Below are positions 36,367-40,722 of a stretch of DNA of 40,964 nt, piece by piece; within the stretch, counting starts at the first letter, position 1, and every line of letters begins with the position of its first letter. A model generated the notes under the pieces. That model worked only from the letters and a program-made list of their open reading frames with translations, did no database searches and was not told the DNA's origin. A program made the position numbers and the translations under genes. Source of the stretch: a virus. The stretch is from positions 1-40,964 of IMG/VR virus record IMGVR_UViG_3300021197_000420; one strand, 5' to 3'.

Positions 36367-36753
36367 CTAAAATTCAGATGGGTCGTATTCTTCTACTCCA
36401 TCTGCCTTCTCATCCACCCTCACACGCTCTAAGTAAGTGTATCCATCGTAAGGTGCTTTGCCTTTCTTAACAAGCATAGTAACCTTATCTCCAAACAAAG
36501 ATAGGTGAGTAGCATCCACCTCGGCCTTGTCTGAGTTGTAAATCTTAGGCTGACCAAAGTCTACCTTACGCTTAGAAGTAATCTGAGTCTTGCCTTCATA
36601 CTCCTTAGTCACTAAGCCATTCTTCTCCGCTTCCTTGATACCTGACTTATCTAAGGATACAGTAAGTGTGTACTTACTTTGTCCTTTGAATACATCGGGC
36701 TGAGTTACTTTGTTAAACACAACTTCACCAGTCAATGATATATAATCACTCAT
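36367..36753 (-). CDS. Single-stranded DNA-binding protein (gp2.5-like)
   Basis: 128 residues: beta-rich OB-type body (SLTGEVVFNKVTQPDVFKGQ, YTLTVSLDKSG, VDFGQPKIYNSDKAEV, VTMLVKKGKAPYDGYTYLER) and an acidic tail ending EEYDPSEF. An acidic tail with C-terminal Phe is a feature of T7-type SSBs, where it contacts polymerase and helicase. It is the first gene of the replication operon. Ribosome site AGGAG (TAAGGAGATG). Family call is by form and position. Confidence 0.8.
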   Translation of the reverse strand: MSDYISLTGEVVFNKVTQPDVFKGQSKYTLTVSLDKSGIKEAEKNGLVTKEYEGKTQITSKRKVDFGQPKIYNSDKAEVDATHLSLFGDKVTMLVKKGKAPYDGYTYLERVRVDEKADGVEEYDPSEF

Positions 36754-36813
36754 TTCTACATCTCCTTATAGTTAACATTTAATTTTACATCTAGCAGTAT
36801 TCTAAGTAATACT

Positions 36814-36863
36814 ACTAAAAGTGTAGTAGAAAAAATGGAAGTAAAAACTACTACACTCTTAGT
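36814..36863. repeat. Long inverted repeat upstream of the SSB gene
   Basis: Arms of 16 bp (36814-36829, ACTAAAAGTGTAGTAG; 36848-36863, CTACTACACTCTTAGT) match at 15 positions, separated by an 18-nt A/T-rich spacer. The one mismatch becomes a G-U pair on the minus transcript. Outer TATTCTAAGTAATACT and AATACTAAGTAAGTAAC extend the symmetry with breaks. It lies between the promoter and the SSB gene, so would be in the mRNA leader as well as in DNA. Candidate operator, origin component or leader hairpin. Confidence 0.8.
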
Positions 36864-36888
36864 AATACTAAGTAAGTAACATTGATTA

Positions 36889-37308: not shown

Positions 37309-37337
37309 ATCATACCATTAAAACTTGCTCTTGTCAA
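37309..37337 (-). promoter_or_regulatory. Sigma70-type promoter for the zinc-ribbon gene
   Basis: On the minus strand TTGACA (37337-37332), 17-bp spacer, TATGAT (37314-37309): nearly perfect consensus. Start near 37302, leader about 80 nt. A Fur-box-like palindrome lies about 46 bp upstream of the -35. Confidence 0.82.
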
Positions 37338-37382: not shown

Positions 37383-37406
37383 TGAATGATTATCATTCGC
37401 ATTTAG
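37383..37406. promoter_or_regulatory. Fur-box-like operator, copy 1
   Basis: Contains GAATGATTATCATTC, a perfect 7-1-7 palindrome whose central 13 bases equal the centre of the Fur 19-mer consensus, followed by GCATTTAG. A second copy (40699-40722) differs at one of 24 positions, the central base. Located upstream of the promoter at 37309-37337. Confidence 0.72.
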
Positions 37407-37410
37407 ACAT

Positions 37411-37433
37411 AAAAAAGGGGGAATCGAACCCCC
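37411..37433 (-). terminator. Terminator ending the small-gene operon
   Basis: The T-arm-like hairpin of unit 2 (five G-C pairs, 7-nt loop) is followed by six U, which makes it an intrinsic terminator for the operon that begins near 40750. The same sequence thus serves as T-arm mimic and terminator. Confidence 0.85.
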
Positions 37434-37499
37434 CATGAGAAATTCTCCTCATGCACCATGTAGAGGGATTTGAACCCCCGTTAGGATATTCACCCTAAC
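37417..37499 (-). ncRNA. Two tandem 37-nt tRNA-like hairpin units
   Basis: On the minus strand each unit is a 6-bp hairpin with an 8-nt loop directly joined to a T-arm-like hairpin (5-bp stem, 7-nt loop). Unit 1 (37499-37463): GTTAGG/CCTAAC, loop GTGAATAT, then GGGGG-TTCAAAT-CCCTC. Unit 2 (37453-37417): CATGAG/CTCATG, loop GAGAATTT, then GGGGG-TTCGATT-CCCCC. Loops are alike (6 of 8 and 5 of 7) while the 6-bp stems differ yet pair fully. Spacer 9 nt. There is no D-arm or acceptor, so these are not complete tRNAs. The first unit overlaps the stop of the preceding gene. Confidence 0.7.
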
Positions 37500-37734
37500 T
37501 CCCTTTTAAATCCTTGTGCCTTTGTACTAAGTAGCCTAGCTTGTGCATCATACCAAACAAGGAGTCCTCGTCAGCCTCGCTTAAAGCTACCTTCAAGGCC
37601 TGTTCTCTCTGTTCCCTTTCAAACTCCTCGGTTTCTAGGTATTCGTCTACAAAATCCATGCTCTCGACCTCACCAGCCTCGTTAACATAGCCCTTATCTT
37701 CACACCAACTAATATATCTTTTAATTCCACTCAT
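37495..37734 (-). CDS. Small acidic protein
   Basis: 79 residues: SGIKRYISWCEDKGYVNEAG, then an acidic helical stretch (FVDEYLETEEFEREQREQAL) and SLFGMMHKLGYLVQRHKDLK. Last gene of the early operon; the stop lies in the first tRNA-like hairpin. Start overlaps the upstream stop. No family recognised. Confidence 0.78.
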   Translation of the reverse strand: MSGIKRYISWCEDKGYVNEAGEVESMDFVDEYLETEEFEREQREQALKVALSEADEDSLFGMMHKLGYLVQRHKDLKGS

Positions 37735-40698: not shown

Positions 40699-40722
40699 TG
40701 AATGATAATCATTCGCATTTAG
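40699..40722. promoter_or_regulatory. Fur-box-like operator, copy 2
   Basis: Contains GAATGATAATCATTC, the same 7-1-7 palindrome as at 37383, with the other base at the centre, and the same GCATTTAG flank. It lies between the promoter (start near 40741) and the first gene, in the mRNA leader, so a bound protein would act as a block after initiation. Confidence 0.72.

Follow-up and report, generated by a model that had tools for sequence, protein, structure and literature searches.

A marine podovirus-like phage carries on one strand two tandem units, each a hairpin set directly against a T arm, and we give about an even chance to the reading that this is a mobile, serine-tRNA-like RNA element which would engage a host tRNA-binding protein. 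Its fold and its recurrence are read from the genomes compared below; the target is one that we infer. Among viruses, tRNA-like structures are most familiar at the 3' ends of plant RNA virus genomes, whereas phages carry whole tRNAs, some of them directed against tRNA-cutting defences. For the doubled variable arm plus T arm, with its covariation, neither Rfam nor the phage collection has a match at the sensitivity used.

The window, that is, the whole stretch of DNA analysed, is the 40,964-base virus record IMGVR_UViG_3300021197_000420 (positions 1 to 40,964), and its source is a podovirus-like marine phage. The plus-strand genes specify terminase, portal, scaffold, capsid and tail proteins. 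After this block the minus strand carries the genes for ribonucleotide reductase, a Cas4-type exonuclease, a family A DNA polymerase and a primase-helicase, together with small early genes. The best matches of the DNA polymerase are those of pelagiphages and roseophages, at identities of no more than 43%.

Architecture of the tandem element and its setting

The element (minus strand, 37499-37417) reads GTTAGGGTGAATATCCTAAC GGGGGTTCAAATCCCTC - TACATGGTG - CATGAGGAGAATTTCTCATG GGGGGTTCGATTCCCCC, followed by TTTTTT (Table 1). Set between two early genes, it lies between the end of a 79-aa ORF, which has no match in Pfam or PHROG, and a strong sigma-70-like promoter from which the next transcript probably starts. 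The coordinates, the spacing of 9 nt between the two units, the loop identities (6 of 8 and 5 of 7) and the complementary stems are all as given by the first-pass annotation. That annotation had drawn each unit as a 6-bp stem with an 8-nt loop abutting a T arm; the abutting arrangement holds, and the hairpin itself refolds as 8 bp capped by a GAAU loop. The same loop caps every hairpin of the tandem family except that of L377 unit 2 (GCAU). The loop TTCRANT is the tRNA T-loop signature, and the T arms are canonical (5 bp, TTCRANY) in both units of all members. One pair of T arm 1 is G-U in the window genome and A-U in L003, L005 and L017, and the family alignments have an invariant GG shortly before each unit. 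In the alternative fold of minimum free energy the T arms are cross-paired.

Table 1. Features of the tandem element and its flanks in the window
Feature	Position	Strand	Remarks
79-aa ORF, upstream of the element	37495-37734	minus	3' end overlaps unit 1; stop codon inside the first stem
5' flank AAAAGGGA	37500..37507	minus	part of model R2
Unit 1 variable-arm-like hairpin, GUUAGGGU GAAU AUCCUAAC, 8 bp	37480..37499	minus	contains the stop codon of the 79-aa ORF (37495-37497)
Unit 1 T arm, GGGGG UUCAAAU CCCUC	37463..37479	minus	
Linker UACAUGGUG	37454..37462	minus	GGU invariant across the family (A3 and A4 alignments)
Unit 2 variable-arm-like hairpin, CAUGAGGA GAAU UUCUCAUG, 8 bp	37434..37453	minus	
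Unit 2 T arm, GGGGG UUCGAUU CCCCC	37417..37433	minus	doubles as stem-loop of the terminator-like site
U-tract directly after T arm 2	37411..37416	minus	terminator tail; absent in L371, L377 and L400
Sigma-70-like promoter, TTGACA-17-TATGAT	37309..37337	minus	11 of 12 matches; second hexamer preceded by TG; lies downstream of the element

The tandem is not a product of chance. The descriptor used asks for a T arm (5-bp stem, TTCRANY loop) and, 0-4 nt away from it, a hairpin with a stem of 6 bp or more. In 4.1 Mb of randomised sequence, made up of 100 Markov copies of the window, 68 T arms arose, of which six had such a hairpin before them, and there were no tandems. Both T arms in the window (2/2), and all nine (9/9) in 80 relative loci (806 kb), are preceded by such a hairpin. 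A covariance model of the unit, R1, which its source members match by construction and which by design favours any hairpin followed by a T arm, matched only tandem or unit loci in 847 kb, after which came noise at an E value of about 5.

Elsewhere in the window a near-perfect long hairpin (about 23-25 bp) occupies 36803-36873 on the minus strand, and it is found also in L002-L037 and L081 upstream of the gene at 36367-36753. Its T-rich loop, TTTTT(A)CTTCCATTTTT, is almost invariant and its stem varies among relatives with the pairing kept (GTAGTAG/CTACTAC, GTGACAGG/CCTGTTGC, GCTACAG/CTGTGGC); possibly it serves for control within a 5' UTR or as a signal in replication. A palindrome, AATGATAATCATT, occurs in a GAATGATAATCATTC context at 37385-37397 (minus strand) and 40701-40713 (plus strand), upstream of two leftward genes. 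It is close to the Fur box core, and the core is also present in L006 and L059.

Likeness to serine tRNA

In class II tRNAs the variable arm is a hairpin set against the T arm, as in each unit of the element, and tRNA-Ser shares with it a hairpin of 6-8 bp, 0-4 nt and then a 5-bp T arm with a TTCRANY loop. Among 190 alphaproteobacterial genomes R1 found a match at E<=1e-4 in 65, and ARAGORN called tRNA-Ser in 29 of the 30 loci retrieved. Since these best matches are tRNA-Ser genes, the unit matches a class II variable arm plus T arm, which supports the tRNA mimicry proposed at first pass, with tRNA-Ser as its model. Of the 111 matches listed for a DNA pattern of V-loop (GAAT) and T arm in GTDB contigs, 64 fell within genes for tRNA-Ser, -Leu or -Sec. 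The variable arm measures 6-8 bp in 93 of 106 tRNA-Ser from selected loci; the arms of the element are of 8 bp (7 bp in L012). Many tRNA-Ser genes of alphaproteobacteria have a T arm identical in every base to that of L037 unit 1, GAGGGTTCGAATCCCTC. Beyond the T arm, likeness to real tRNA-Ser rose above shuffles only for unit 1 of the window and of L005, the library being enriched for GAAT loops. Primary-sequence descent from tRNA-Ser was rejected, as unit 1 alone exceeds the shuffles and the library was a selected one.

Unlike tRNA-Ser, the element is doubled in tandem. In every member the T arms lack an acceptor stem and a CCA after them, and nothing resembles an anticodon arm, so that we regard the element as tRNA-like and not as a tRNA; a real tRNA is excluded in the window, where ARAGORN finds 0 tRNA genes. 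One might still try to fold the whole tandem as one odd tRNA, with AAAAGGG and CCUUUUUU forming the acceptor, hairpin 1 as the D arm, hairpin 2 as the variable arm and T arm 2 in its usual role, while T arm 1 would supply the anticodon CAA from its UUCAAAU loop and so stand for the anticodon arm. The Rfam tRNA-Sec model (RF01852), which also has a long variable arm and T arm, does align end to end across both units in L005 [31.3 bits], but this is under the gathering score of 47, L037 reaches only 22.1 bits and the acceptor is not conserved. By inspection no such acceptor stem is present in the flanks of L371, L377 and L400, the single unit of L012 does not fit, and ARAGORN calls none; a cloverleaf of either kind, whole tRNA or tRNA-Sec, is very improbable and was rejected.

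Temperate phages often carry tRNA 3' ends, which counts in favour of an attP core, in which the phage would integrate through a copy of the 3' portion of a host tRNA gene. Here the tRNA-like part goes no further than the T stem and lacks both acceptor and CCA, the window genes scanned include no integrase, and a search of contigs from 84,980 species genomes with the V-loop plus T-arm pattern of unit 1 gave no match. With neither an integrase among the scanned genes nor a host match, we see hardly any likelihood in attP and rejected it.

Stable RNA C of phage T4 (species 1 RNA, T4s001) is also a small phage RNA with a hairpin and T arm at its 3' end, and it gives a weak R1 match (19.4 bits). 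It differs in being a longer, single unit within a tRNA cluster, and R2, the model of the whole tandem, gives it only 12.6 bits.

Rfam 15 has no family that reaches threshold on the element, the tRNA family RF00005 included. When the region or the element was compared by blastn with 50,697 phages and 72,556 plasmids, no record covered the element; only short pieces were returned, for the most part single T arms belonging to tRNAs, besides a stretch of 23 nt next to a capsid gene of cyanophage S-TIP37. The S-TIP37 piece (L511 20530-20552) is a GGGGGGTTCGATTCCCCCC hairpin in the gap between the capsid gene and a small ORF after psbA. In 385 alphaproteobacterial genomes R2 scored no higher than 32.4 bits, as the tRNA background does, and a search of 398 genomes from the phylum, run with stricter filters and no positive control, gave no match at 1e-5. 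Tandem T arms less than 50 nt apart occur in one of 385 bacterial genomes and look there like acceptor plus T arm with CCA. These copies (L488 and L489, genome G179 contig 52) are 44-nt tandem repeats, apparently acceptor, T arm and CCA, right after a tRNA-Ala gene; with that layout they are a different thing, and were rejected as copies of the tandem element. No such element was found in the literature covered, chiefly open-access papers.

Recurrence, covariation and exchange among phages

Pairs of T arms separated by 20-50 nt, a spacing too small for two whole tRNAs, were found by scanning in at least 120 viral stretches. Among the matches listed, these pairs are mostly broken tRNAs in tRNA arrays; 74 of 127 have one arm inside a called tRNA and one outside, and 47 of 127 have neither arm in one. 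A second recurrent group of pairs outside called tRNAs (L416, L425, L426, L446, L465, L466 and L486; GGCGGGTTCGATTCCCGCTCGCTGGCCGAG...GGGTTCGAATCCC) has in most members a tRNA-Ser-like TGGCCGAG between the T arms, and R2 scores it at background.

The whole tandem design is common to L371 (identical in sequence in L473), L377 and L400. The shared order is GGTAC/GGAAGC, a variable-arm-like hairpin with GAAU, a T arm, a linker with GGTGGC/GGTAGC, a hairpin and a T arm. In these three there is no U-tract, and the element is placed just upstream of a gene, before the ribosome-binding site. L371 and L377 are T4-like, carrying sliding clamp, CobS-like and SbcC-like genes, and by inspection the gene which follows the element in both, starting MKE..LFVEKYRP, looks like a clamp loader. 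L400 carries genes for MazG and thymidylate synthase.

A covariance search had been set beforehand as a test able to refute the element, and it returned more than chance matches. L400 was left out of model R2, which was built from the window, L005, L037, L371 and L377; the model recovers it with a score of 59 bits (E = 1.2e-11), and nothing in the tRNA-rich background exceeds 34.4 bits. Two-sided changes affect 7 of 26 pairs in five sequences and 12 of 26 in six, out of a family of six to seven distinct sequences, with 98% of cells paired; this upholds the proposal of selection on RNA shape. The covariation score was reached by 0 of 500 shuffles, and slid-structure controls gave at most 2 two-sided pairs. 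Alignment A4 was fitted to the model and leans towards the structure; alignment A3 was made by sequence alone, with the structure supplied by the analyst. The comparison shows the predicted fold to be conserved across podovirus-like and T4-like marine phages, and its recurrence in unrelated marine phages suggests a virus-borne tRNA mimic and not a chance hairpin.

Alternatively, the tandem may be a neutral relic, the functionless remains of a tRNA array spread by phage recombination. This would agree with the frequency, noted above, of close T-arm pairs with one broken tRNA in phage arrays, and with the T4-like phage C48C1, in which a tRNA-Thr gene lies in the clamp/clamp-loader interval, the kind of interval that holds the element in L371 and L377. 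It agrees poorly with 12 covarying pairs and with T-loops and GAAU loops that are intact in phage groups differing elsewhere, nor does ARAGORN find a whole tRNA in any (0/80) of the podovirus-like loci, and we consider it quite improbable.

Among these 80 relative loci, retrieved via the primase-helicase, the tandem is kept at the same site as in the window in L003, L005 and L017. L002, L006, L009, L010, L011, L013 and L076 have there a plain terminator and no tandem, either GGAGCAGAAATGCTCC-U6 or GGGC..GCCC with a U-tract, and L012 has a single different hairpin (7 bp), a T arm and U7. Because close relatives have an ordinary terminator at the site the element is dispensable, and because many of them lack it we regard it as accessory. 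Insertion of DNA downstream is independent of the type of terminator: the window has tandem and insertion, L005 and L017 tandem and none, L006 plain terminator and insertion, L002 plain terminator and none.

In L037, from a lineage about 77% alike in primase protein, the tandem sits between other genes at a site different from that of the window. Homology between the two, at 95%, is confined to about 86 bp, while the DNA of the adjacent primase genes agrees at only about 67%; at the stem base L037 has ACTAGG/CCTAGT and the window GTTAGG/CCTAAC. In L027 and L035 the insertion place of L037 is empty. From these comparisons we infer that the element is probably mobile.

Termination and a possible protein target

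At the window locus a GC-rich stem (37434-37417) is followed immediately by U6, the pattern of an intrinsic terminator, and the second T arm with its U-tract probably also ends the transcript in the window phage. The first-pass annotation had taken the second unit for a terminator and the element for the 3' end of a transcript. The former looks right at this locus and does not hold generally, since L371, L377 and L400 have no U-tract immediately after the stem; the latter fails as a general feature, the elements of these three being just upstream of a gene. Termination is accordingly unlikely as the shared purpose. Nor would an intrinsic terminator need a T-loop or a second upstream unit.

Fragments of class II tRNA genes might nonetheless have been captured by recombination and kept only as a GC-rich T arm and U terminator shielding the mRNA 3' end. 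In favour of this are the terminator-like unit 2 with U6, the strong promoter downstream, and the terminators which relatives carry at the same place, including the single unit with U7 of L012. A T arm with immediate U6 was found, among the matches listed, in about nine apparently unrelated viral contig groups, in nearly all of which the stem has 5 bp; the one control loop scanned gave two groups, and their stems were imperfect; general enrichment of T-loop terminators is thus suggestive, the control being a single loop. L371, L377 and L400, which lack the U-tract and have the element just before a ribosome-binding site, argue otherwise, as does unit 1, which is unneeded for termination and yet has covarying stems and a canonical T-loop. 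We hold capture for termination alone to be possible but rather unlikely.

L210, L211, L212 and L213, which come from phages that seem unrelated, have U6 immediately after a T arm. In some of them a hairpin adjoins the T arm and the T-loop shows a purine exchange (TTCGACT/TTCAACT), as though pieces of tRNA had been put to new use as terminators. Permuted tmRNAs (RF04321, 64 bits) were seen on viral contigs of 123-128 kb (L205 8755-9020, minus strand, and L207 242-504, plus strand), with another T arm and U6 downstream.

Returning to a serine-tRNA-like element that engages a host protein, we would assume that it is transcribed together with the neighbouring early gene, T arm 2 and U6 probably serving the window phage as terminator besides. 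The two modules would present features of tRNA-Ser, its elbow and its long variable arm, and, decoy-like, may bind a host protein which reads both, either SerRS or a defence nuclease that cuts the variable arm. SerRS is a dimer, which two tandem modules would suit.

The variable arm of tRNA-Tyr is the site of cleavage by Septu and retron-Eco7, defences which a phage can counter with tRNA of its own (PMC13096335). The likeness lies in a phage-borne variable arm readable by a defence nuclease; those phages use whole tRNA-Tyr genes, whereas the target of the element is presumed. Bolder, and in our view unlikely, is the suggestion of a dedicated, horizontally exchanged family of viral RNAs, each a double mimic of the tRNA-Ser elbow and variable arm, that would occupy dimeric SerRS or soak up variable-arm nucleases (PtuAB of Septu/retron-Eco7), acting as an anti-defence or host-takeover agent and not as a translating tRNA. 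If binding to SerRS or to a defence nuclease is true, the element would be a minimal way to mimic a tRNA, and a small RNA that is directly testable. It bears, too, on the role of the broken tRNA pieces in phage genomes.
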